DNA from: Dictyobacter kobayashii | Lineage (GTDB): Bacteria > Chloroflexota > Ktedonobacteria > Ktedonobacterales > Ktedonobacteraceae | Direction: 5' to 3' | DNA: 64,000 bases | Assembly (NCBI RefSeq): GCF_003967555.1 | Contig: NZ_BIFS01000002.1 | Coordinates: forward strand, 682,001 to 746,000 | Shown: in pieces, positions 17,277-32,409 of the stretch | How positions within the stretch are numbered: position 1 is the stretch's first letter | Layout of the letters: the number at the start of each line of letters is the position of its first letter | Position numbers and translations under genes: made by a program | The notes under the pieces: generated by a model | The model's database searches: none | What the model saw: only the letters and a program-made list of their open reading frames with translations | Told to the model about the DNA's origin: nothing

Positions 17277-17340
17277 CGTCCAGAGAATGTACATCTTTCA
17301 GGTGTGGAGTGGGCGGCCGCAACCACCCACTCCACGCCCC
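17277..17340 (-). repeat. Truncated copy of the GTGGAG/CTCCAC palindromic repeat
   Basis: GTGGAGTGGGCGG, a short middle and a reverse-complement arm ending CCCACTCCAC form the palindrome, and the bases before it (CATCTTTCAGGTGTGGAG) are the reverse complement of the tail of the copy at 50256-50320. It abuts the ABC transporter wreck. Confidence 0.6.
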
Positions 17341-17356
17341 CAACCCGGCGCCGCGA

Positions 17357-18125
17357 ACCTTTGCCACGATTATTCTTCCCAGTATCTTACCCGGTGTTAT
17401 CAGCGCGGCATTGCTGACCTTCTCGACGGCAATGGGAGAGTTCACGCTGGCCAACCTTTTTAATATCGCCTCCTTCCCGATCTATCTAAATGTGACAGGG
17501 CAGAGTGATCCCCATAAGGCAGCCTCTTTAACCATTCTAAGCTTTTTCCTCACGCTATTCTGTGTGCTGGCAATGCTGCTTTCTGTACGAAGAGGCCCTC
17601 TCGATCTCAGATCGCATCACAGTGATGTCTAAAGGCCAAATTGAGCAGTTGGATAATCCAGAGCAGATCTATCGCAAGCCTCAGACCGTCTTTACAGCCA
17701 CTTTTGTGGGTGTCAGTAATCGCTTCGAGGGAACTGTTATCTCGGCAAGTCAGGGAAAATGCCAGGTTAAGCAACAGGACTTCTATGTTGCTGCGCAGCC
17801 GGAAGATTTTCAGGATGGAGATGCAATCTTAATCCTGGTTCGCCCAGAGCAGATCGCGATCCATGATCAGGATGAGCCCGAGTTAGCAGGGCCGCTGGCA
17901 ACGCACAATCATATACCTGGTATTATTCAATTGCGCACATTTCTTGGTCCATTTACACGCTTCATGGTGAAGACAGCGAACGATGAGCTGGTTACGGTTG
18001 ATGTTTCAAATCAACAGGCGCGGGATCTGTTTGTAGCACAATCTATCGTGATGACATTTTCGCCCGATAATTGCTATGTCTTGCCTCTGCAAGATAAAAA
18101 GCAAAAATATATTCAGAGCATCTGA
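17357..18125 (+). pseudogene. Fused remnant of an ABC transporter permease and ATPase
   Basis: From about 17357 one frame gives the C-terminal part of an ABC permease (PSILPGVISAALLTFSTAMG, then three hydrophobic segments up to LFCVLAMLL). At about 17580 coding shifts to another frame that gives the C-terminal third of an ABC ATPase: EEALSISDRITVMSKGQIEQ, the D-loop-distal helix, then a TOBE domain (residues of VRPEQIAI type) up to the stop at 18125. Walker A, signature and Walker B are missing, as is the N-terminal half of the permease. A deletion that fused two adjacent genes of a polyamine/iron/phosphonate-type importer explains this best. Not functional. Confidence 0.8.
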
Positions 18126-18348: not shown

Positions 18349-18518
18349 GTAAAGGGATTGGAGAGAGTCAAGGGATTGAAGAGAATATTTGTAGTGATGG
18401 GGGGCGGTTTTTGTAGGTTTATACTGGTGTTACAAATCGGGGGGGTGTAGCGTGGAGAAAGTACACTAATGGGGCAAAGGGCTGTTGGACATAGAGGATA
18501 TAGAATAGGAGCGTGAGG

Positions 18519-20831
18519 ATGGAGCAAGAACGATGGCGCGTACTTGTGCAGGGAATCGTGCAGGGAGTAGGCTTTCGTCCGTTTGTGTATGGATTAGCAC
18601 GGCGCTGGCAATTGGGGGGCTTTGTCCTCAATAATAGTCAGGGCGTGGTTATCGAGCTTGAGGGAGCACTCGCCGCGCTGGAAGCATTTCAACAAGCCTT
18701 GCTGACTGAACTTCCTCCGCTGGCTCAGATCGATGAGGTGCAGGTCACGCAGATGGATATACAGGGTGAGAATGCCTTTGTGATTGTTGAGAGCCAGCGC
18801 CAGGCCGAAAGGCGTACTTTGATCTCGCCAGATACCGCTATCTGTGCCGATTGCTTGCATGAACTCTTTGAGCCTCTTGATCGCCGCTTCCATTATCCTT
18901 TCATCAATTGTACTAATTGTGGTCCTCGCTTCACAATTATCCAGGATGTTCCCTATGATCGCGCCAATACGACTATGCGTGGCTTTCAAATGTGTGAGCA
19001 GTGCCAGCGTGAGTATAGTGATCCGCTGGATCGCCGTTTCCATGCCCAGCCAGATGCCTGCGCCCGCTGTGGGCCCGGCGTCTATCTGCAGATGCGACCA
19101 GCTACTGAGTTGGTGGCAGCTAGTGGTACAGAGATTGAGCGGACCGCCGCCTATCTGGCTCAGGGTGCGGTGATGGCGATTAAAGGATTGGGCGGCTACC
19201 ACCTGGCCTGCGATGCCATGAACGATCAGGCTGTCCAGCAGCTACGTATCCGCAAGCAACGTGAGGCCAGGCCATTCGCCTTGATGGTTGCTAATATGGA
19301 TAGCGCGCGCCAACTCTGCCAGATTAATGATGAAGAAGCTGTTTTGTTGCAATCGCATCGACGCCCAATTGTGTTGCTCAAAAAGAGGGAACAGCAAATT
19401 GTAGCTCCCGCCGTAGCCCCGGGACATCAAACGCTGGGATTAATGCTGCCATATACACCGCTCCATTATCTGCTCCTGGCTGCCTGCCAGCAATATTTTG
19501 CACCTGAGCTGCCAGTCATACTGGTAATGACCAGCGGCAATGTGAGCGATGAGCCAATCGCTTATCGCGATGAGGATGCCAGCACACGCCTGGCTGCTAT
19601 CAGTGATGGGATACTGGCACATAATCGTGAGATCTTTATGCGTTGCGATGACTCGGTACTTAAAGTGACAGCTAGCGGACCACAGTTCTTACGCCGCTCT
19701 CGTGGCTATGTACCAGAACCACTGATGTTGCCCTGGCCTGTCCTCATGCCTATTCTGGCCTGTGGCGCGCACCTCAAGAATACATTCTGTCTGGCCAAAG
19801 AAAAACAGGCATTTATCAGTCATCATATCGGGGATCTGGAAAATCTGGAGACACTACTCTCCTTCAGGGAAGGGATTGAGCATTTTAAACGCCTCTTTGA
19901 TATCGAACCGGCAGTTGTCGTACACGACCTGCATCCTGATTACCTGGCAACCCGCTATGCGTTAGAACTTGATCTGCCCAGGATAGGCGTGCAACATCAT
20001 CATGCACATATAGCCAGCGCGATGATTGAACATGCTTTGACTGAACCTGTAATTGGGATTGCCGCCGATGGCTCTGGCTATGGTACAGATGGCGCGATCT
20101 GGGGCGGCGAAATCCTGCAGGCAGATCTATGTAGTTTTGAGCGTTGCTTTCACCTCGCCTATATGCCTTTACCAGGCGGCGAGCAAGCGATAAAACAGCC
20201 ATGGCGTATGGCCGCAGCCTATCTTTATGCCGCTTATGGCAGTGACTTTCAGGGATTACATATCCCATTCAGCCAGCAATTGCCCCGGCAGACCTGGAAG
20301 ACACTGGCTCAGATGATTGAGCGGCGCTTGAATTGCCCGGCCACATCCAGCCTGGGGCGTCTCTTCGACGCGGTTGCGGCTTTACTGGGCATTCGTTCAC
20401 AGGTGCAATATGAAGGACAGGCTGCGATAGAACTCGAGCAACTGGCGCTGACATGTAAAGATCCACAGCAGAGCTATCCTTATAATATCTCAACTCTCAC
20501 GGCAGAATTGGAGGTACTTCCTACCATCCAGGCTATTGTCAGAGATATAGAGCAGCATGTTCAACCAGCCACCATCGCCCGCCGTTTCCATAGCACAATT
20601 ATTCAATTGTTAGTAGATGCCTGTAAAGAGGTGCGCAAGAGAGATAGCATACATAAAGTGGTTCTAGGAGGAGGAGTTTTTCAGAATCAATTACTACTAG
20701 AAGAGCTGGTCACTGTTCTGGACCAGAATGCCTTTGAAATCTATCTCAACAAGAAGGTTCCTGTCAACGATGGAGGGCTGAGTCTGGGGCAATTGGCGAT
20801 CGCGGCGGCGCAATTAAAAAAGATAAGCTGA
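18519..20831 (+). CDS. hypF: HypF carbamoyltransferase, [NiFe]-hydrogenase maturation
   Basis: 770 residues, full length for HypF. Domains in order: acylphosphatase (VQGVGFRPFVYGLA, near residue 15), two zinc fingers of the Cx2C-x18-Cx2C kind (CADCLHELFEPLD and CEQCQREYSDPLD), a YrdC-like domain (KGLGGYHLACDA, then TSGNVSDEP) and a Kae1-like C-terminal domain (QHHHAHIASAM, DGSGYGTDGAIWGGE, GGGVFQN). HypF makes the thiocarbamate on HypE that becomes the cyanide ligand of hydrogenase. ATG 18519 is used since AGGAG (18507-18511) is 7 bases upstream; a GTG six bases earlier is too close. No other hyp or hydrogenase gene is in the window, so the partner genes must lie elsewhere or be absent. Confidence 0.96.
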   Translation: MEQERWRVLVQGIVQGVGFRPFVYGLARRWQLGGFVLNNSQGVVIELEGALAALEAFQQALLTELPPLAQIDEVQVTQMDIQGENAFVIVESQRQAERRTLISPDTAICADCLHELFEPLDRRFHYPFINCTNCGPRFTIIQDVPYDRANTTMRGFQMCEQCQREYSDPLDRRFHAQPDACARCGPGVYLQMRPATELVAASGTEIERTAAYLAQGAVMAIKGLGGYHLACDAMNDQAVQQLRIRKQREARPFALMVANMDSARQLCQINDEEAVLLQSHRRPIVLLKKREQQIVAPAVAPGHQTLGLMLPYTPLHYLLLAACQQYFAPELPVILVMTSGNVSDEPIAYRDEDASTRLAAISDGILAHNREIFMRCDDSVLKVTASGPQFLRRSRGYVPEPLMLPWPVLMPILACGAHLKNTFCLAKEKQAFISHHIGDLENLETLLSFREGIEHFKRLFDIEPAVVVHDLHPDYLATRYALELDLPRIGVQHHHAHIASAMIEHALTEPVIGIAADGSGYGTDGAIWGGEILQADLCSFERCFHLAYMPLPGGEQAIKQPWRMAAAYLYAAYGSDFQGLHIPFSQQLPRQTWKTLAQMIERRLNCPATSSLGRLFDAVAALLGIRSQVQYEGQAAIELEQLALTCKDPQQSYPYNISTLTAELEVLPTIQAIVRDIEQHVQPATIARRFHSTIIQLLVDACKEVRKRDSIHKVVLGGGVFQNQLLLEELVTVLDQNAFEIYLNKKVPVNDGGLSLGQLAIAAAQLKKIS

Positions 20832-20957
20832 CATAAATACTAAAACACAATATACAAGCACGCCACCACTCCGGAAGCAGGAAAAACAATCTGCCTGCTA
20901 GGCCATAGAGTGATGGCGCTCGTGGTTGTGCCATTTATCACATGGCTGCGCCACAAA

Positions 20958-21284
20958 TTAATGGTGATGTCCGCCGTGACCGCCGTGACCACCGTGACCA
21001 CCGTGACCACCGTGACGATGACCAAAGCGGCCCCTACCAAAGCGGCGATGACCCCAACCACGACCCCAACCCCAACCACCATAACCCCAACCACCATAAC
21101 CGAAGCCATAGCCATAACCGCCACACCCACCATAACCGCCATAACCGCCATAACCGCCCCAACCACCATTGACCTCATCTAACTGTTGGTCGGTCAATTC
21201 CTCGGCATCCACTTTCGCTAAAAGTTCGGGATACGACTGTTCACTCAGGACATCTACGCGTTGATCTGTTTTGCGATTAAACAT
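20958..21284 (-). CDS. Gly/His-rich peptide with double-glycine-type leader, paralogue 1
   Basis: 108 residues. The leader, MFNRKTDQRVDVLSEQSYPE then LLAKVDAEELTDQQLDEVNGG, has the acidic helix ending in VNGG that marks substrates of C39 peptidase/ABC exporters. The core is mostly Gly with Tyr and Trp (GGYGGYGGYGGCGGYG), one Cys, then a basic stretch (HRRFGRGRFGHRH) and a tail of repeated HGG ending HHH. ATG 21284 is chosen because AAAGGA lies 8 bases upstream and because the third paralogue has no earlier ATG. The His tail suggests binding of Ni, Cu or Zn; the leader suggests export or RiPP-like maturation. No modifying enzyme is adjacent. A simple structural Gly-rich protein is the main alternative. 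Confidence 0.82.
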   Translation of the reverse strand: MFNRKTDQRVDVLSEQSYPELLAKVDAEELTDQQLDEVNGGWGGYGGYGGYGGCGGYGYGFGYGGWGYGGWGWGRGWGHRRFGRGRFGHRHGGHGGHGGHGGHGGHHH

Positions 21285-21336
21285 CACGTTCATCCTTTCG
21301 TAAAGTATCAGGAAGTCCTACCGGGAAAAACTCCAG

Positions 21337-21384
21337 GTGGCCATGTGCCACTTCATATGTACCCTATGCTGATTTATATGTCAA
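21337..21384 (-). promoter_or_regulatory. Promoter and 5'UTR hairpin of Gly/His-rich gene 1
   Basis: Read leftward: -35 TTGACA (21379-21384), 17-base spacer, -10 TACATA (21356-21361), then a small hairpin GTGGCACATGGCCAC (21337-21351) in the leader RNA. Spacer length and nearly all bases are the same in front of paralogues 2 and 3, which supports the call. Confidence 0.75.
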
Positions 21385-21690
21385 GTCTACTATAATTTTT
21401 AGATCATCAAAATTTAATAATAAATTAATCTATTATCACCTGAACATATAAACCTAATAGAGATAAGCGGGAGAATAGACGCAAAAAAACAAGTATTTTT
21501 TATATAAAAAGTTATTTTGGAAGGATAGCAGGCCTTTTTAGCAGGGTAAATTGAGGGAAGGAATCGATTAGGAAAAATGGCCAAAAATAAAATTCTTTAT
21601 AAAGAAATTTCTTTATAAATCAACTTATGGGGACTGGTATATTTTCTCGCTCGTCGGAAAACACAGCTAAAAATTTTTTTGAGGGCAACA

Positions 21691-21760
21691 ACGACACTCC
21701 AGGTAACTTGTACCTGGAGTGTCGTATGTATGGTCATAAGCTTTAATTCATGACCATACA
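21691..21760 (-). terminator. Paired hairpins after Gly/His-rich gene 2
   Basis: Just past the stop codon, TGTATGGTCAT pairs with ATGACCATACA (21727-21760), and next ACGACACTCCAGGTA pairs perfectly with TACCTGGAGTGTCGT (21691-21725), followed by TGTTG. The same two-hairpin layout, with different bases, follows gene 3. They may end transcription or protect the 3' end. Confidence 0.7.
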
Positions 21761-21765
21761 ACTGA

Positions 21766-22116
21766 TTAATGGTGATGTCCACCGTGTCCGCCATGGCCGC
21801 CGTGATGATGTCCGCCATGTCCACCGTGATGATGTCCACCCCGACCGCGACCACCACGGCCCCAGCCACCACGACCCCAACCACCGTAACCACCCCAACC
21901 ACCCCAACCACCCCAACCACCGTATCCACCACCACAGCCGCCATAGCCAAAACCATTACCCCAACCACCGTATCCACCACCCCAACCACCACAGGTGCCA
22001 TTGACATCCTGCAACTGCTGGTCGGACAATTCCTCGGCATCAATGTTGACTAAAAATTCTGGATACGACTGCTCACTCAGGATATCCACGCTCTGGTCTT
22101 TTTTGCTGTTAAACAT
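21766..22116 (-). CDS. Gly/His-rich peptide with double-glycine-type leader, paralogue 2
   Basis: 116 residues. The leader MFNSKKDQSVDILSEQSYPE, FLVNIDAEELSDQQLQDVNG is nearly that of paralogue 3. The cleavage position reads G-T instead of G-G, followed by CGGWGGGYGGWGNGF. The core has two Cys, many Trp and Tyr, an Arg-Gly stretch (RGGWGRGGRGRGG) and a His-rich tail (HHHGGHGGHHHGG, ending HHH). Start chosen as for paralogue 1: AAAGGA eight bases upstream. Leader, promoter and untranslated parts are more alike between the paralogues than the core, which varies in length and repeat order. This is what is expected of a family with a conserved recognition sequence and a free core. Confidence 0.82.
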   Translation of the reverse strand: MFNSKKDQSVDILSEQSYPEFLVNIDAEELSDQQLQDVNGTCGGWGGGYGGWGNGFGYGGCGGGYGGWGGWGGWGGYGGWGRGGWGRGGRGRGGHHHGGHGGHHHGGHGGHGGHHH

Positions 22117-22167
22117 CACGTTCATCCTTTCATAAAGTATCAGGAAGTCCCACTGGAAATTTTCCAG

Positions 22168-22215
22168 TTGGCCATGTGCCACTTCATATGTACCCTATGC
22201 TGATTTATATGTCAA
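22168..22215 (-). promoter_or_regulatory. Promoter and 5'UTR hairpin of Gly/His-rich gene 2
   Basis: -35 TTGACA (22210-22215), 17-base spacer, -10 TACATA (22187-22192) and the hairpin around TGGCACATGGCCA. A second small hairpin CTGGAAAATTTCCAG follows (about 22153-22167), also kept in gene 3. Confidence 0.75.
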
Positions 22216-22451
22216 GTCTACTATAATTGATGTATTCACTAAATTTAATAATTAATTAATCTATCGTTGCCAGAGCATGTCGATCTAATAGCGAAACACA
22301 GAAGTCTATCGCTCGTATAACGAAAAATTCCAGTATGAAACGCTATTCAATGAGGAAATTGAACTCTTTTGAACAGTCAAAATGGAGAATGAAAATGAGA
22401 AAAGAAGTCGACCAAAAATAAAGTTCCTCCTGAAAGAACTTCATTTTGTGT

Positions 22452-22643
22452 CTATTGGTGTAGGCTAGATTGCTTCATACCCGCTACCAGAGAGTAGCCA
22501 TAGTATGCTGGAAACAACATTTGAAAATACCGCTTGATGACGGCTAACTGCGGCACCATGACGTATCGGTTAACATGGATCAGTTTCCAGGTGACCGCGC
22601 TCAGTAAAATAAATGGGATGAGGAGCAAAAAAAATATGAGCAC
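22452..22643 (-). CDS. Possible small membrane protein between the Gly/His-rich genes
   Basis: 63 codons from GTG 22643: MLIFFLLLIPFILLSAVTWK, a hydrophobic helix, then a basic amphipathic part (RYVMVPQLAVIKRYFQML) and SLVAGMKQSSLHQ. There is no clear ribosome site and the GTG start is a guess. It could be a small exporter or immunity-type protein for the peptides, a piece of a larger lost membrane protein, or chance. Its place between two paralogous genes on the same strand is the only support. Confidence 0.3.
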   Translation of the reverse strand: MLIFFLLLIPFILLSAVTWKLIHVNRYVMVPQLAVIKRYFQMLFPAYYGYSLVAGMKQSSLHQ

Positions 22644-22742
22644 GTGAGCAAGCTTATTGTTTATATTAATTGTTTATATTAACTGTACACTGAAGGGATG
22701 AATGATGAATGTTCCGCAAGCTCAGGGTGAGTTATGATGGTT

Positions 22743-22827
22743 GTTACTCAGGGCGCAGCTGCATGGAAGTAGCTGCGCCCTGAGTAACATAGGTACGTGT
22801 GGTCATGCATTTTGCTGCATGACCACA
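22743..22827 (-). terminator. Paired hairpins after Gly/His-rich gene 3
   Basis: TGTGGTCATGCA pairs with TGCATGACCACA (22798-22827), and then GTTACTCAGGGCGCAGCT (22743-22760) pairs perfectly with AGCTGCGCCCTGAGTAAC (22771-22788). There is no long T-run. The layout copies that after gene 2. Confidence 0.7.
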
Positions 22828-22834
22828 CAACCGA

Positions 22835-23215
22835 CTAATGGTGGTGATGTCCGCCGCCGTGACCGCCGTGATGATGCCCGCCGTGATGGTGTCCACCGCC
22901 GCCGCCGTTATTGTTATTATTACCACCATTACCCCAACCACCGTATCCACCCCAGCCACCCCAGCCACCCCAGCCACCAAAGTTACCCAGACCCCAGCCG
23001 CCGAAGCCATATCCGCCGCCGCAACCGCCACAGCCACCAAAACCACCACCCCAACCACCGAAACCGAAGCCATATCCGCCGCCGCCGCCCCAGGCGCCAT
23101 TAACTTTCTGCAGCTGCTGATCAGACAATTCCTCGGCATCAATGTTGACTAAAAATTCTGGATATGACTGCTCACTCAGGATATCCATGCTCTGCTCATT
23201 TTTGCTGTTAAACAT
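22835..23215 (-). CDS. Gly/His-rich peptide with double-glycine-type leader, paralogue 3
   Basis: 126 residues. The ATG at 23215 is the only one available: AAAGGA lies eight bases upstream, and the codons before it give no Met, which settles the start of all three paralogues. The leader is MFNSKNEQSMDILSEQSYPE, FLVNIDAEELSDQQLQKVNG, ending G-A. The core has GGCGGCGGG (two Cys), repeats of GGWGGWGGW, an Asn run (NNNNN) and a tail HHHGGHHHGGHGGGHHHH. The Gly-rich body with aromatic residues recalls microcin-like or cell-surface Gly-rich proteins, while the His tail recalls nickel-storage proteins. CopC-CopD is the next gene downstream of its promoter, on the same strand, ending 251 bases before this start. 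Confidence 0.82.
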   Translation of the reverse strand: MFNSKNEQSMDILSEQSYPEFLVNIDAEELSDQQLQKVNGAWGGGGGYGFGFGGWGGGFGGCGGCGGGYGFGGWGLGNFGGWGGWGGWGGYGGWGNGGNNNNNGGGGGHHHGGHHHGGHGGGHHHH

Positions 23216-23265
23216 CGAATTCGTCCTTTCGTAAAGTATCAGGATCTCTCACTGGATTTTTCCAG

Positions 23266-23313
23266 GTGGCCATGTGCCACTTCATATGTACCCTATGGTG
23301 ATTTATATGTCAA
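23266..23313 (-). promoter_or_regulatory. Promoter and 5'UTR hairpin of Gly/His-rich gene 3
   Basis: -35 TTGACA (23308-23313), 17-base spacer, -10 TACATA (23285-23290) and hairpin GTGGCACATGGCCAC (23266-23280). Upstream lies the AT-rich block ATTAACTAATTATTAAAC, similar in all three copies and a possible UP element. Confidence 0.75.
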
Positions 23314-23465
23314 GTCCATAATAATCTACGAATTCACTAAGTTTAATAATTAGTTAATCTTTCGTGGCTATTGCATATTAAATCAATAGCAATATATAGG
23401 ATTCGCAATCTTAAATGATGAGGAATCCTGCACGAAAAAGCCAAGCAATGATAATGTAGACCTTT

Positions 23466-24770
23466 TTAACGGGTTAATAAGGGAGGAGAAAGAGAAAGAA
23501 GAATTCCTGCTAGAATTAGAATTCCTATTAAGGCAACTTCTTCTAATATCCACCAGTATATAATAGGTTGTTTTCTTGCACGCCTGAATAAGGCCAAAAT
23601 GAACAAAATCGCGAGAAAAATGATGAGCTTTATTAATAGAACTCTTCCATAATTAGTAGTGATGAGATTAGAAATACTGGTAAACTGCAGCCAGCTAATA
23701 ATCACCCCTGAAATAAAGAGTTCAGCCACCGCAGTAGTCGCCAGGTAACCAAAACGTGTTAGCAGCACACTCTTTTGTGCAAGCAGTCTCTGGTGCCTCC
23801 AGAGGCCAGTCAAACTGCTCAGCCCTCCAATCCAGAGGCCCATTGAGATAAGGTGAACCATATGAGCCAGCAGGCTAATCCAGGGAGCACGGGAGCCCGT
23901 GGCATGACTACTGAAACTGTCGATTAATGCCAGTAAAATACCCACCAGGCAGGCCAATCGAACCCCTTTTTTCGCTCCTTGCTGTATAGCTCCCACCAGA
24001 ATCCATAGTACAAGTGCGGCCCCCAGGCGCAAAGATAGCAGCCAACCAAAATTAGTCGCCAGCAGGCCACCAATAATATCAAAGCTCAGCCCTTGACTGG
24101 CCGTTAGCCCCATACTCTGCGCCAGCAGTGCCAGCGGCTCAGCCAATACCAGCAGGGCGATACCATACTTTGCCAGGCGTAAAAGGTAATCTTGAATCTC
24201 TTCTACCGTTGACAGTTGTAGTGGATAGACAATCAGCCAGAGGAAAGCCAGAACCCCAAATCCAAGTGCATAGCCCAGGAAGTGCAGTAGCTGTGCTACA
24301 GCTTGCAGGACAGTATATATGAATGGCAGCTGCTCCTGTCCGGTGCTATTAGCCCAGGGACCTCCAGGCTGACCGACACTAAATATATACTTACCGCTTA
24401 CTGGCTGGGTATCCTGCGAAAGCACCTGCCAGCTGACAAGATAGCTACCTTTCGAGCGCGCATCAATCCCCATTTCCAACTGATTGCCAGAGATCTTTAC
24501 CGCCCCATGTATAATTTGCTGACCTGAAGGGGTCATCACAGTAATCGTCTGGACAATTGGTTGGACCGGCTCAGAAAACACTAACAGTAGTCGTGACGGT
24601 GGAAGAGCCTGTACACTGTTGGCAGCAGGATCCGCACGTAACAGGCTAGCATGCAAACTTCTAGCCTGGGCGGGTGTAGGATATAGTAACAGGAGGCCAA
24701 TAAGCACACTCCACATAATCCATAGACCCGACCAGTAATACTGTGACCGCCGAAGACGTGATATGGGCAT
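23466..24770 (-). CDS. CopC-CopD fusion, copper resistance/uptake membrane protein
   Basis: 434 residues. A signal-type segment (residues 16-36, ending AQA) leads to a CopC domain: HASLLRADPAANSV at residue 40, LLLVFSEPVQP, and SWQVLSQDTQPVSG, the equivalent of the SxDGHPxxG block. In this block the usual copper-ligand His is a Gln, so the Cu(II) site is probably weakened. From about residue 150 to the end there are some eight membrane segments of the CopD type, with HFLGYALGFGV and HMVHLISMGLWIGGL carrying His residues as in that family. Such fusions bring copper into, or move it across, the membrane. Its position beside three His-rich exported-type peptides suggests a metal theme. The broken MFS gene begins 9 bases upstream. 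Confidence 0.9.
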   Translation of the reverse strand: MPISRLRRSQYYWSGLWIMWSVLIGLLLLYPTPAQARSLHASLLRADPAANSVQALPPSRLLLVFSEPVQPIVQTITVMTPSGQQIIHGAVKISGNQLEMGIDARSKGSYLVSWQVLSQDTQPVSGKYIFSVGQPGGPWANSTGQEQLPFIYTVLQAVAQLLHFLGYALGFGVLAFLWLIVYPLQLSTVEEIQDYLLRLAKYGIALLVLAEPLALLAQSMGLTASQGLSFDIIGGLLATNFGWLLSLRLGAALVLWILVGAIQQGAKKGVRLACLVGILLALIDSFSSHATGSRAPWISLLAHMVHLISMGLWIGGLSSLTGLWRHQRLLAQKSVLLTRFGYLATTAVAELFISGVIISWLQFTSISNLITTNYGRVLLIKLIIFLAILFILALFRRARKQPIIYWWILEEVALIGILILAGILLSLSPPLLTR

Positions 24771-24778
24771 AACGGCCT

Positions 24779-26130
24779 CTAAATGCTTTCAGCCAGCGGA
24801 ACATCCATAGCGGATGGCACATCACTTACCAATGGCTGCTGCAGACGTGGCTTCCGGCCAATACGAATAACCATACCTGAAGCACAAAGGCAAAGCAAGC
24901 CAGCCGAAATAAAGCTGACCTGATAAGATCCCAACCAGGTGCGCAGCAGGCCAGCCATAAAAGCGGCTGTCGCGGCCCCCAGTTGGTGCGAGGCGAAGAT
25001 CCAGCCATAAATTACACCTGCATTGCGTACACCAAATAGCTCAGTGGTCAAACGTGCCGTTGGTGGCACGGTCGCGACCCAATCCAGCCCATAGAAAACA
25101 ATAAATACAGCTAGCGAGAGATAAGAGGAACTCAGTGCATATGGCAGAGCAATAGTGAGCAGCCACGCAATCCATAATACCAGCAGAGCACCAGCGAATC
25201 CCATCGATCAGTCAAATAGAGACAGCCAGCGATTATCCATGCGATCAGAAGCCAACCAGAAATTGTAGTGCCGATCAGGTCAAAAATACCGATTAAAGCT
25301 AGCATACTGGCAGCAGTCACTTCAGCAATGCCGTGGTCCATTGAAGCGGGAATCAAGTGGGTACCAATCAAACCATTGGTGGTGGCGCCACAGATAAAGA
25401 AACTTCCAGCCAGTAACCAGAAGTCAGGTACTCGTAAACCACGTCCTAACCCTCTGAGAGCACTAATAAATGGATTATCGGTGCTACTCGCCCCTGCTCC
25501 CTCCTCCTCAACCTCAGCTCCATAAGGGAGTAAGCCAATATCTCGTGGTCGCTCACGCATAAAGATGGCCACCAGCGGTACGACCAGCAGGGCCGCGCCA
25601 GCGGTGGTTAAAGCGGCAGAGCGCCAACCATAATTGACCGCTAAAGCCGCCAAAGCGGGCAAAAATACCAGTTGTCCGGCCGCATTGCTGGCGGAGAACA
25701 AACCTATTACCAGGCCTCTACGCTTCACAAACCAGCGATTCGCCACCATAGTACCCAATACCGAGGCAATGGCGCCGGTAGCAAGCCCAACCAGGAGTCC
25801 CCACAAGAGATCCAGTTGCCAGGGTTGATGCATAAAAATTGTCAGCCCGGCCGAGAGCGCAATCAGAAGTAAGGCCAGCACCATCACACGCCGAATACCA
25901 AAGCGCTCCATAATCGCCGCCACAAATGGTCCACTCAAGCCATAGAACACCAGATTGATAGAGACTGCCAGCGAAATTGTGGCCGCGCTCCAGCCAAACT
26001 CGTGTTCGAGCGGCACCAGCAATACGCTGGGAGTCGAGCGCATACCAGCGGCCGCCAGAAGCGCCAGAAAAACAACCACCGCGATAATCCAACTATAATG
26101 CAAACGTGATCGTTTCGATGGGAGATGCAT
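24779..26130 (-). pseudogene. MFS transporter broken by frame disruptions
   Basis: ATG 26130 (MHLPSKRSRLHYSW) has AAAGGAAAG just upstream. The first 300 residues are a normal MFS N-terminal half and loop (RLHYSWIIAVVVFLALLAAA, then PLEHEFGWS), of the monocarboxylate/oxalate-formate antiporter style. The frame stops at 25132; the rest (LPYALSSSYLSL, VFYGLDWVATVPP) is in another frame to 24779. One base added near 25152 would join them. In addition, 25190-25240 reads oddly: the expected loop TDRMDNRW appears out of frame and the segment before WYYGLRG is about 35 bases too long. At least two lesions, so probably truly dead. The TetR gene 26204 upstream likely controlled it. Confidence 0.75.
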
Positions 26131-26203
26131 GCTCTTTCCTTTTCCAATTGCTATGTGCATACTCATATCAAGAAGGTCAATTTAACAGGTCAATCTATTC
26201 TCT

Positions 26204-26920: not shown

Positions 26921-28878
26921 TTAGTGATCCTGTACATCCCAGACAAAAAGGTTGCCGCTGATATCTGTGGATACAATGCGATCAATAGCAGCATTGGGAA
27001 CCCAGGAGATGGCATCAACTGGTGTTTTGTGGCGCATATAGGTACAGACTAGCTGGCCATCTTTATTATCTCCTGACACGTTCCACACCTGGACTTCACC
27101 ATTCTTGTCAGTGGAGGCCAGATACTTGCCATCGGGCGACCAGGCGATCGCGCCATCCCAGTTGCTATTAGAGACGCTTCTGGTATTGTATGTGCCATCA
27201 ATCAAGGTTCCACGATCATGCACATGCACCACACCATCGGCGAGCGTATAGGCCAGGCGCATGTCGTCCGGCGACCAGGAAAGGCCGACCACGCGTTGCG
27301 GTAGACTCAGGTATGGAGTGGGCTCCTGGGTCAGGCTGGACCGGCCGGTGCGCATATCCCACATCTCGATCTTCCAGATCTGCTGGCCATCTCGATCGAC
27401 TGAAGCACAGATCGAGGCCAGCGTATTTCCTCTAGTAGGCCAGGCAATGGCAGTAATTGTGCCCTGTTGCGCCGTATAGCTGCTCAAGAAGTGTCCTGTG
27501 GTTGTATCCCAGATCGAGATGGTGGTTACAGCACTCGTTTCATTGAGGGCCAGGGCAATGTAATGACCATTTGGAGAGAAAGTAGCCACGGGAATCTGCG
27601 AACTGGTGGGGACTGAAAAAATGGTTTGTCGATTATCTTTTCGTATTATTACCGCCCCATTTTGTAGCTCAGCGGTATAAAACGAATAGCCTACCCATGC
27701 CAGATCCAGGACTCTGGCTGGTGTGTTATACATGGCCATGGATTGCTTGATAACGGCATTAGCAACTTGAATAGTCCCATTCCCATCCACCCAGGCAAAT
27801 TGGGTGTTATTCAACCAGGTAACGCCGGAACTCTTGCCTCCAATGTCATGATAATGGGCATATTCAACGATATGATTGATCTCGGCTGGAGCCTGTAAAG
27901 GCGGCTGTAACATAAATGCCACGCCACCTAATAACATTACAATCAACATAACAATGCTAGCATGCCTGGCTGTAGCAGCCAATTTTGTCAGGCTGGCTAG
28001 CAAATGCGAGTGGGCAGGATAAGCTGGCGCTGGTACTATATCTGTACGAGGAGTGGTCGAGGGTATGGCAGGCAATTGTTTTTCATAGATTGAGGGTTTA
28101 TTAGTTACGTCAGAAGAGGAAGCATTATCGGGCGAGGAACATTGTTGGCGCTGCCAATGCTGGAGGGCAACATCAGCCAGGCCACGTAATACCTTTTCAG
28201 CTGCTTGCCGCACATTCGTATCTTTATCCGCCATGGCTTGCTGCAACAGTGAACGCGGAGCCAGCTCATTCATTTTACCCAGGGCCAGTACCGCTGCCTC
28301 GCGCACCATCCAGGAACGGTCTTGTGAGGCAGAGGTTAACGCATCCAGGGGGCGTGCGTTCCCAGTTTGCCTAGCACAGTCACGGCAGCAGCACGCACCG
28401 TTTCATCCTGATCCCCCAGCGCATAGATCAGCGCATCAAGCGGCACACGATGAATATGGTTGCCCAGTGCCATCACGACACAGGAGCGCACATGCCAATC
28501 GGGATCATAAAGCGCGACTAATAAGGGCTCTAAGGGGATTTCCGTATCTGTGGTACCAAGCACACGAGCGGCCGTAGCCCGCACCGCTTTATGTTCATCT
28601 TGCAAAGCGGCCAGCAAGAGCTCCCGAGGTGCCTGCAGGGGCAGACGTCCAAGCTGTTTTAAGGCGCCAACACGGACAACCCAGTCAGAATGCTGCAAAT
28701 CTAGTAGCAATTGTTCATGTGAAAGCGGAAATGTTGTAGAGTTTTTACCCAGACCGAAGTAGGTTAAAGGAGGAAGCGACGACTCAGGCTCACCACTATT
28801 ACTCGTCCCATGCAACCATTGTCCAGCAGCGTTTTCATGCTCTGGACGCCCAGGGTGATCGCTCTCATGTTTCTCCAT
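26921..28878 (-). pseudogene. HEAT-repeat / membrane / WD40 protein, one-base frameshift
   Basis: The first 180 codons (28878-28336) give repeated HEAT-type helices: RVGALKQLGRLPLQAP, RATAARVLGTTDTEIP, RSCVVMALGNHIHRVP, RAAAVTVLGKLGTHAP. With one more base in the five-G run 28348-28352 (plus strand) the frame flows into LDALTSASQDRSWMVREAAV and another HEAT repeat, then a low-complexity linker, one membrane helix (IVMLIVMLLGGVAFML) and a C-terminal beta-propeller with WD40 phrases (WSPDDMRLAYTL, WSPDGKYLASTD). Total about 650 residues. It starts 7 bases after the ECF sigma gene and thus probably acts with it, as a membrane sensor or anti-sigma-like partner. The frameshift may be a sequencing error. 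Confidence 0.78.
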
Positions 28879-30865: not shown

Positions 30866-32409
30866 GTAACTACTCAGTACCTTGAGAAAAGCTGGACAAA
30901 GCTGATAAACTAAGAGCATGACAGAAGAAGAAGTGAGAAATCTTCAGAAAGCCTACCGAGAGCTCAAAGAGCAAGCAGAGGCATTCAAAGAGCAAGCAGA
31001 GCAGAAAGATCGCAGGATCGAAGAGCTCGAAGGATTGCTCATAGGTGCCTTGTTGCGCATTGAAGAGCTTGAACGGCGATTGGGAAAAGATAGTCATAAT
31101 AGTAGTAAACCTCCTTCCAGTGATGGATTGGGTCGCAAACCTGGCAAACAGCGGCGCAAAAGCGGCAAGACTTCCGGTGGACAAGCCGGTCACCACGGTC
31201 ATACCCTGATGCAAGCATTGACTCCTGATAGCGTCGTGCTTCATCGTCCAACGCACTGTGAAGCATGTCAGTACCCTCTTGAGCAGGAGGCAGCTATCAC
31301 CAACGAACGCCGTCAAGTCCACGATCTGCCCACGTGGCGTTTGCTGGTCGAGGAGCATTGCCGACAAGCAATCTGCTGCCCCTATTGCCAGCATGTGACG
31401 CAGGCGTCTTTTCCGGCAGGCGTCGATGCTGCTGTCCAGTATGGCCCGCAGGTCCAAGCCTTGGCGGTCTATCTTTCCCACTTTCAACTGGTGCCACTGC
31501 AACGCACCTGTGAAGCTCTTGCTGATCTGTGCGGGTGTCAGTTGTCCGAAGGCACGCTGGTCCGTTGGATTGCTCAGGCAGCCAAGACCCTTGAGTCGAG
31601 CATCGAGCGGATCAAAACCTTACTGCTGGCCAGCCCCTTGCAACATGCTGACGAAACGGGGATGCGTGTCAAAGGCATCTTGCATTGGATGCATCTCAAT
31701 GCGACTCCCTGGCTCACCCTGTACTCCTGGCATCGCAAACGAGGGCATCAGGCTCTGGAGCAGATTGGGATCTGGCCACACTATCAGGGCCGCTCCATGC
31801 ATGATCGCTGGTCCAGCTATGATCGCTACCTCTGTACCCATAGCCTCTGCGGAGCCCACCTGCTACGCGACTGCCTGTATGTCGCCGAACAGGAGAAGCA
31901 GCCTTGGGGACAAGCCATGTTCGATCTGTTGCTGGCGATGAAGCAAGCCGCTGATCGCTGGCGCCTCCAAGGAGCGAGCGCCGTCCCCACCCCCGAACGG
32001 GAGCAGTGGCTTGCCCAGTATTTTGCCATTCTGGCCGCTGGCTTTGCCACGCATGCCGCTCAAGCCCCTCCCCCAGGAAGTCTGCAGCCCAAACGACAAG
32101 GACGCAAAAAACAGGAAGCCTCCAAGAATCTGCTCGATGCGCTCTTAAAGCGAGCTGATCAAGTGTTGGGTTTTCTGGAGGACCTGTCTGTGCCTTTTAC
32201 CAACAATCTCGCCGAACGAGATTTACGCATGGTGAAAGTGCAGCAAAAGATTTCCGGAACCTTCCGCAGTGACGATGGAGCTACGGCTTTTTGCATCATT
32301 CGCAGCTATCTTTCAACCATGCGCAAGCAGGGGCGCTCAATGCTTGCTGCCATTGCTGCGGTTTTTGCTGGTTCTCCTTTCCCCATTGCATGGGCTACTG
32401 AGTAGTTAC
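30866..32409 (+). mobile_element. IS66-family insertion sequence (1544 bp) with intact target duplication
   Basis: The two ends are perfect 14-base inverted repeats, GTAACTACTCAGTA (30866-30879) and TACTGAGTAGTTAC (32396-32409). The 8-base target copy TTTTAAAC stands at 30858-30865 and again at 32410-32417. Eight bases is the known target size of IS66. It has one transposase gene and no tnpA/tnpB helper genes, as in the ISBst12-like subgroup. Perfect ends and duplication point to a recent insertion. Confidence 0.96.
30918..32405 (+). CDS. IS66-family transposase (TnpC)
   Basis: 495 residues. It starts with a Glu/Lys/Gln-rich coiled coil (leucine-zipper-like, residues 1-55), then the IS66 signature SSKPPSSDGLGRKPGKQRRK, a zinc-binding segment with CEAC and CPYC pairs, and the DDE core: HADETGMRV, SMHDRWSSYDRY and NNLAERDLRMVK. 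The last 40 residues carry the usual IS66 C-terminal motif (TFRSDDGATAFCIIRSYLST). All catalytic residues are present and the frame is whole, so the enzyme is probably active. The stop codon lies within the right inverted repeat. Confidence 0.96.
   Translation: MTEEEVRNLQKAYRELKEQAEAFKEQAEQKDRRIEELEGLLIGALLRIEELERRLGKDSHNSSKPPSSDGLGRKPGKQRRKSGKTSGGQAGHHGHTLMQALTPDSVVLHRPTHCEACQYPLEQEAAITNERRQVHDLPTWRLLVEEHCRQAICCPYCQHVTQASFPAGVDAAVQYGPQVQALAVYLSHFQLVPLQRTCEALADLCGCQLSEGTLVRWIAQAAKTLESSIERIKTLLLASPLQHADETGMRVKGILHWMHLNATPWLTLYSWHRKRGHQALEQIGIWPHYQGRSMHDRWSSYDRYLCTHSLCGAHLLRDCLYVAEQEKQPWGQAMFDLLLAMKQAADRWRLQGASAVPTPEREQWLAQYFAILAAGFATHAAQAPPPGSLQPKRQGRKKQEASKNLLDALLKRADQVLGFLEDLSVPFTNNLAERDLRMVKVQQKISGTFRSDDGATAFCIIRSYLSTMRKQGRSMLAAIAAVFAGSPFPIAWATE

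Follow-up and report, generated by a model that had tools for sequence, protein, structure and literature searches.

The P1-P3 locus

Three tandem paralogous genes, here called P1, P2 and P3, lie between hypF and a CopC-CopD gene on a 64,000-nucleotide stretch (the window) of the genome of the soil bacterium Dictyobacter kobayashii. What do they encode? P1 (20958..21293), P2 (21766..22125) and P3 (22835..23215), all on the minus strand, were each assigned as genes for precursor peptides with a double-glycine (GG) leader from the open reading frame (ORF), an alignment of leaders, a GG-leader profile and amino acid composition. The original prediction, made from the nucleotide sequence of the window, had described three paralogues with a near-identical 40-residue leader, a Gly/Trp/Tyr core with one or two Cys and an HGG/His tail, and the ORFs and the alignment agree with this description. 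The lengths it gave, 108, 116 and 126 residues, are correct when counted from the MFN start; an in-frame ATG upstream of MFN adds three residues to P1 and P2, which are 111 and 119 residues long from MNV.

The 40-residue leaders, of which 26 columns are invariant in all three peptides, end in VNG-G/T/A. That of P1 ends in EELTDQQLDEVNGG and is followed by a Gly/Tyr/Trp core with one Cys and the tail HRHGGHGGHGGHGGHGGHHH; that of P2 ends in EELSDQQLQDVNGT, with a non-canonical Thr at -1, and precedes a core with two Cys and the tail HHHGGHGGHHHGGHGGHGGHHH; P3, with the leader end EELSDQQLQKVNGA, also has two Cys and closes with HHHGGHHHGGHGGGHHHH. All three tails consist of HGG repeats and His runs. 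The cores draw on a reduced alphabet: Gly accounts for 53-58% and Trp/Tyr/Phe for 16-22% of residues, with 10-12 His and one or two Cys each, and they contain no Asp, Glu or Lys and no Ser or Thr, the sole exception being the Thr at the P2 cleavage site. The isoelectric point is 4.1 for the leaders and 7.4-10.1 for the cores. A Pfam/NCBIfam search of the three proteins returned nothing above a family cut-off, and an Rfam scan of the 64-kb window gave no match.

A double-glycine leader

To which export route would such a leader belong? The search with a leader model covered 47 genomes from the order and 400 from the phylum Chloroflexota. Clear matches outside the window occur in D. aurantiacus S27 (four copies), D. 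vulcani W12 (one) and D. arantiisoli Uno17 (one), and none in Ktedonobacteria bacterium brp13; in this set the leader family is limited to Dictyobacter, in four of the five genomes of the genus group. These are the relatives with a conserved leader that the original prediction had proposed to look for, and only whole-genome searches found them. Matches elsewhere in the phylum (E 0.008-0.02), mainly short pieces within long frames, were judged to be chance, and a degenerate-pattern scan of the genome contigs for the leader yielded nothing confirmed.

Across the nine leaders compared (P1-P3, four from D. aurantiacus and one each from D. vulcani and D. arantiisoli), L-12, L-7, V-4 and G-2, numbered back from the cleavage site, are invariant, and residue -15 is Ala, Thr or Val. 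Published contacts with the C39 peptidase domain are Val-4, Leu-7 and Leu-12 (PMC6363468), or positions -4, -7, -12 and -15 (PMC7018657). The -2/-1 pair is canonical in P1 (GG) and P3 (GA), and is GT in P2 and two D. aurantiacus copies. A GG profile trained on 27 precursors adjoining C39 exporters, none of them from the window, was run on the 703 window ORFs of >=30 residues and placed P3 (24.1 bits), P1 (23.6 bits) and P2 (21.6 bits) first; the fourth ORF scored 4.2 bits and the best shuffled ORF 6.3 bits. Outside the locus, the three best matches to the leader model in the genome all adjoin C39 exporters. Judged from these positions and ranks, the P1-P3 leader is of the double-glycine/C39 type, in keeping with the original prediction. 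Further upstream, a Y-24 P-23 ... L-20 block is invariant as well; the RtgAB exporter selects its cargo by a leader motif at -22 to -18 (PMC7018657), and by this likeness the block could act as an exporter selector. We consider it very probable that P1-P3 are secreted GG peptides.

C39 exporters and a candidate partner

The genome holds nine C39 matches and the window none. A genome devoid of C39-type exporters would have refuted the original prediction, whose view that maturation would take place in trans is supported. The eight strong matches are C39 ABC exporters, each with an HlyD-like gene adjoining. An exporter next to the gene is dispensable for GG peptides (PMC7018657). Which cargo, then, adjoins these exporters? 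Two (L019 and L024) adjoin lanthipeptide-type GG precursors, L020 adjoins an unrelated GG peptide beginning MFKFGKKN, and L021 adjoins a GG peptide in the style of P1-P3, ELNETELQNINGG followed by WGGHHYHHHHHRYYRYGYGYYYDDCGYGCGGCGSCGSCGGGCW.

Exporter-adjoining GG peptides rich in Gly, aromatic residues, His and Cys recur in the Dictyobacter group (D. aurantiacus L055 and L059, D. vulcani L053, D. arantiisoli L056, brp13 L052 and L066) and beyond it, in a Ktedonobacteraceae metagenome-assembled genome (L070, with eight consecutive His), Ktedonobacter racemifer (L090), Thermosporothrix (L075) and Tengunoibacter (L076). By the GG profile, whose training on Ktedonobacteria biases the comparison, such peptides are present at 12 of the 43 Ktedonobacteria C39 loci at hand and at none of 54 others; an untrained motif scan agrees with this contrast. 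As far as leader and composition tell, P1-P3 are part of a broader class in Ktedonobacteria, GG-leader peptides with cores rich in Gly, aromatic residues, His and Cys, encoded alongside HlyD-C39 exporters.

Some of these loci have features of their own. A PknB-type Ser/Thr kinase gene adjoins the C39 exporter at L021, L059, L066 and L076, all four with Gly/His GG peptides. In the metagenome-assembled genome (L070 204-774), two GG-leader peptides next to the exporter have cores made almost purely of His, Tyr and Cys (CHHHHHHHHCYRPCYDYYYYYDCYYYYDYCW). In Thermosporothrix hazakensis (L075 7446-8708), a C39 exporter adjoins four mersacidin-type leaders, some of which lead into Gly/Trp cores (GGPWWGGGPWWGGG, for example).

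A likely partner for P1-P3 is suggested by the sister genus. In Tengunoibacter tsumagoiensis an HlyD-C39 operon (L076 4242-7160) has a GG peptide on each side, with tails (HHHGGHGGHHHGGHGG) that carry HHHGGHGG as the window peptides do. Among the 47 genomes of the order, the GG-leader peptides found to contain HGGHGGH were just the Tengunoibacter pair together with P1 and P2 (five G011 matches on one contig left out); other matches (G011, G012, G014, G018, G027) are unrelated proteins where the frame is open, and the rest have no such frame. In the exporter tree L076 is sister (100/98) to a Dictyobacter clade (L022, L060, L061, L065 and L067) with one member in each of the five genomes, and no GG precursor was found beside any of the five. 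The L022-type exporter is a candidate for export in trans because no precursor adjoins it and its sister is flanked by HGG-tailed GG peptides. The simplest interpretation, supported by gene neighborhood and phylogeny in the sister genus, is that the HlyD-C39 pair L022 (G000:C2:2120794-2123697) exports P1-P3; we hold it slightly more likely than not. The next candidate is L021, but the assembly shows its gene as split, and neither D. vulcani nor D. arantiisoli, both of which carry the peptide, yielded a member of the L021 clade. Taken jointly, secretion as GG peptides and export in trans are probable.

Could the resemblance of the leader be accidental, and P1-P3 be Gly-rich structural or RNA-binding proteins that stay inside the cell? 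Gly/Arg/aromatic low-complexity proteins do occur there, and the lack of an adjoining exporter would fit. The leaders nevertheless score like those that adjoin exporters, their residues at the C39 contact positions do not vary, and the Tengunoibacter exporter is flanked by peptides with the same tails, all of which make an intracellular role very unlikely.

Modification of the core

The original prediction mentioned maturation in a pathway for ribosomally synthesized and post-translationally modified peptides (RiPPs), which is unlikely. Lanthionines are ruled out because Ser and Thr are missing from the cores, the Thr where P2 would be cleaved aside. Bufferins and methanobactin are copper-binding RiPPs made by MNIO enzymes; the MNIO family (PF05114) is absent from the genome.

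A further possibility is that Trp, Tyr and His of P1-P3 are crosslinked in trans by a radical SAM enzyme. The genome does encode one of GrrM type (TIGR04261, 410.8 bits against a cut-off of 310), and aromatic residues are abundant between the glycines of the cores. The gene for this enzyme is 1.5 Mb distant and comes immediately after that of a repeat protein resembling a partner of its own, P1-P3 match neither GrrA-type nor other precursor families above cut-off, and no modifying enzyme was recognized among the neighbors tested of the L059, L066 and L076 exporters. We regard crosslinking by such an enzyme as highly improbable. Most likely, the product would be unmodified, perhaps disulfide-linked. 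The GrrM-type gene (L210 8912-11147; G000:C2:2247911-2250146) follows a 276-residue ORF of Asp/Arg/Asn repeats, an unusual partner for this enzyme family.

Transcription and gene neighborhood

A promoter-like block, TTGACATATAAATCAnnnTnGGGTACATATGAAGTGGCA, stands upstream of each of the three genes, whose promoters are near-identical. It lies on the minus strand at 21346..21384 for P1 (TTGACA ... TACATATGAAGTGGCA; exact pattern match), 22177..22215 for P2 and 23275..23313 for P3 (pattern matches), each also supported by an alignment of nine upstream regions. The block fits a TTGACA -35 element followed, after 17 bases, by TACATA; as the spacer and the bases past TACATA are conserved too, the conservation suggests an overlapping operator. 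A consensus promoter scanner missed it, since the last base of the second hexamer is not T. No copy was found elsewhere in the genome with up to three mismatches allowed, and the block was rejected as a regulon marker.

On the same strand, double strong hairpins are predicted behind P2 (21691..21760; -45.3 kcal/mol, z -8.2) and P3 (22742..22832; -67.6 kcal/mol, z -12.3), and a weaker pair behind P1 (approximately 20858..20956; -47.7 kcal/mol, z -3.8). These predicted folds would mark the transcript end or stabilize the mRNA. As RNA structures, the 5' untranslated regions (UTRs) fold no better than shuffles (z -1.4, -1.1 and +0.8). Since each gene has its own promoter block and two end in strong double hairpins, P1, P2 and P3 each seem to form a transcription unit. 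The shared promoter and 5' UTR, the double 3' hairpins, the relatives and the exporters elsewhere in the genome had no place in the original prediction.

The leader recurs with the same promoter in D. aurantiacus, D. vulcani and D. arantiisoli, and the similarity among P1-P3 is therefore not due to chance. The D. arantiisoli copy shares 86% identity with P2 in the promoter and UTR and 47% in the leader coding sequence. Synteny of the Dictyobacter loci is partial. A family search confirmed the names that the original prediction gave to the neighbors, CopC-CopD (23466-24770) and hypF (18513-20831). The latter adjoins the peptides in the window, D. aurantiacus and D. vulcani and is missing from the D. 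arantiisoli locus; CopC-CopD adjoins them only in the window and D. vulcani, with no copy at the D. aurantiacus or D. arantiisoli locus. Because the promoter persists while these genes vary, the peptides and their promoter are what these loci conserve as a unit, and the presence of copper and nickel genes beside them looks incidental.

These observations bear on the idea that P1-P3 are secreted or surface buffers or scavengers of Cu, Ni or Zn, linked to CopC-CopD and HypF. Ten to 12 His per core, HGG repeats, His runs and the arrangement shared by the window and D. vulcani all suit it. The neighbors do not hold across the genus, two of the four D. aurantiacus copies have HRRFF/HRRW tails in place of HGG, the Tengunoibacter peptides are not close to metal genes, and the MNIO enzymes of copper RiPPs are missing; a buffering role is improbable. 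The original prediction had proposed an exported metal-binding peptide. Its export half probably stands, on the strength of the leader. Its metal half can no longer be drawn from the neighbors, and since neither gene is conserved at the locus, the HGG/His tails are what now speaks for metal binding.

The single D. vulcani peptide gene has a frameshift in the assembly ahead of the tail; its other frame would encode a Cys-rich stretch, a final run of eight His and a Cys. Because CopC-CopD on that contig is frameshifted likewise, an assembly error is possible. In brp13, searches for the flanking genes of the locus gave no match, and a search for HHHGG returned only the L052 peptide and a 102-residue Gly/His protein. 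The latter (L182 1254-1562), rich in Gly, His and Trp (MGHHHGGGGFGGGGHHHHHGGNGFGGG...), lacks a GG leader, carries a hydrophobic stretch at its C-terminus, and is perhaps an alternative display of similar sequence.

An IS66-family transposase gene (30918-32405) lies near the P1-P3 locus. Genes split into overlapping frames occur in the window at 24779-26166, 26921-28878 and 17309-18125. They include a major facilitator superfamily (MFS) transporter, of which D. vulcani (L035) has an intact copy of 439 residues, and a HEAT-WD40 protein whose gene is unbroken at L034 and L035; an ABC permease region is perhaps also split. Three of the eight C39 genes of the genome (L020, L021 and L024) are split as well. 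These are either indel errors of the assembly or decaying genes.

Proposed mechanism and function

How might P1-P3 work? We propose that each gene is transcribed on its own and encodes the precursor of a secreted peptide rich in Gly, aromatic residues and His. Residues V-4, L-7 and L-12 of the acidic leader would anchor it in the C39 domain, cleavage would follow the GG or GA (or GT) site, and an unmodified peptide of 68-86 residues would leave the cell through the L022 HlyD-C39 pair, acting in trans. Outside, the aromatic-Gly core may self-associate and the HGG/His tail may bind Zn, Cu or Ni, to give a metal-responsive surface or matrix peptide. By analogy, a metal-binding, self-assembling product is the likeliest of the functions considered, at somewhat less than even chances.

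Must a peptide that leaves by this route be a weapon? P1-P3 could be C39-secreted bacteriocins or antifungal peptides directed against competitors, perhaps Zn-bound in the manner of the plant shepherins. The GG leader with a C39 exporter is the customary bacteriocin route (PMC3140520), cousins that adjoin exporters exceed the cut-off of bacteriocin_sig (17.3 and 17.5 against 15.7 bits), and multiple copies with drifting cores are compatible with an arms race. Zn binding to shepherin I gives fibrils and antifungal activity (PMC10698721), and because the (HGG)n tails of P1-P3 nearly repeat that peptide, an antimicrobial role still stands as a rival. Against it, P1 itself stays below the class II bacteriocin cut-off (12.9 against 15.7 bits, TIGR01847) and P2 and P3 have no match; the cores are nearly free of aliphatic residues and lack a hydrophobic helix; each gene is apparently transcribed singly; and no immunity gene or co-transcribed partner was recognized between hypF and CopC-CopD. 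We consider this role rather unlikely. The reduced alphabet, the separate promoters, the several copies that keep the leader while the core drifts and the fact that no immunity gene was recognized instead favor a secreted structural or metal-binding peptide over a class II bacteriocin.

Several points weigh against the proposal as a whole. Thr replaces Gly, Ala or Ser at -1 in P2 and two D. aurantiacus copies. The peptide genes have no exporter next to them, neither in the window nor at the remaining Dictyobacter loci, and brp13 carries an L022-type orphan exporter yet has no leader match. The HGG tails are of low complexity and could have arisen twice independently. Function past export is argued from composition and analogy, and because of the D. 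aurantiacus copies without an HGG tail, metal binding is neither a constant feature nor the sole conserved property.

Double-glycine leaders with C39 exporters are customarily taken for bacteriocin or pheromone systems, and a reduced-alphabet aromatic/Gly/His cargo in several Ktedonobacteria genera calls for another use of the C39 route. We suggest, tentatively, that Ktedonobacteria build a class of extracellular material from Gly/aromatic/His/Cys peptides exported through C39-HlyD, with HGG tails as metal-responsive cross-linkers, for mycelial surfaces, spores or aggregates and not for killing. Should the mature peptides prove to bind metal and to assemble, they would amount to a small, genetically encoded metal-responsive material with a built-in secretion tag. 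The match of an orphan L022-type exporter to orphan peptides through a sister genus is a directly testable pairing.

Comparison with known systems

The original prediction took the peptide family to be new, and no description of peptides of the P1-P3 type was found in the literature searched. In the passages covered, surveys of Ktedonobacteria (PMC6497799, PMC13289182) report lanthipeptide and other clusters and not this class. The export route is known; the class of cargo and the orphan arrangement appear new.

Among the closest known systems are the cyanobacterial C39-HlyD bacteriocin clusters (PMC3140520), which share the leader motif ELxxx(E/Q)LxxVxG(G/A), a C39 ABC exporter with HlyD, and variable, often Gly-rich cores. 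The window peptides differ in having no adjoining exporter, Gly/Trp/Tyr/His cores devoid of Ser and Thr, and HGG tails. A Tengunoibacter cousin matches the CTB family bacteriocin model weakly (NF038167, 17.8 bits against a cut-off of 32). Within the same order, type 2 lanthipeptides with mersacidin-like leaders, LanM and C39 (PMC6497799) likewise combine GG leaders with C39-HlyD exporters (for example, L019, L024, L055 and L064), and some Ktedonobacteria lanthipeptide-type loci also carry Gly/Tyr/His cores; the window leader is not mersacidin-like, and Ser and Thr are lacking from the cores.

The GrrA/GrrM system (TIGR04261) resembles P1-P3 in its Gly-rich precursors with aromatic residues and in the presence of a GrrM-type enzyme in the genome, and differs in that P1-P3 are not adjacent to the enzyme and do not match a precursor family. 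The MNIO copper RiPPs are likewise small peptides, proposed as metal binders as P1-P3 are here, whereas the window peptides begin with a GG leader and not a Sec signal, contain few Cys and come from a genome that lacks MNIO. Shepherin I, a plant Gly/His antimicrobial (PMC10698721), has a (GGH)n repeat that nearly equals the P1 tail, but it is an unrelated peptide with neither GG leader nor aromatic core, and the likeness is one of composition, not descent. On the side of materials, the proposed HGG cross-linked substance would be a bacterial counterpart of the metal-hardened proteins of animals.

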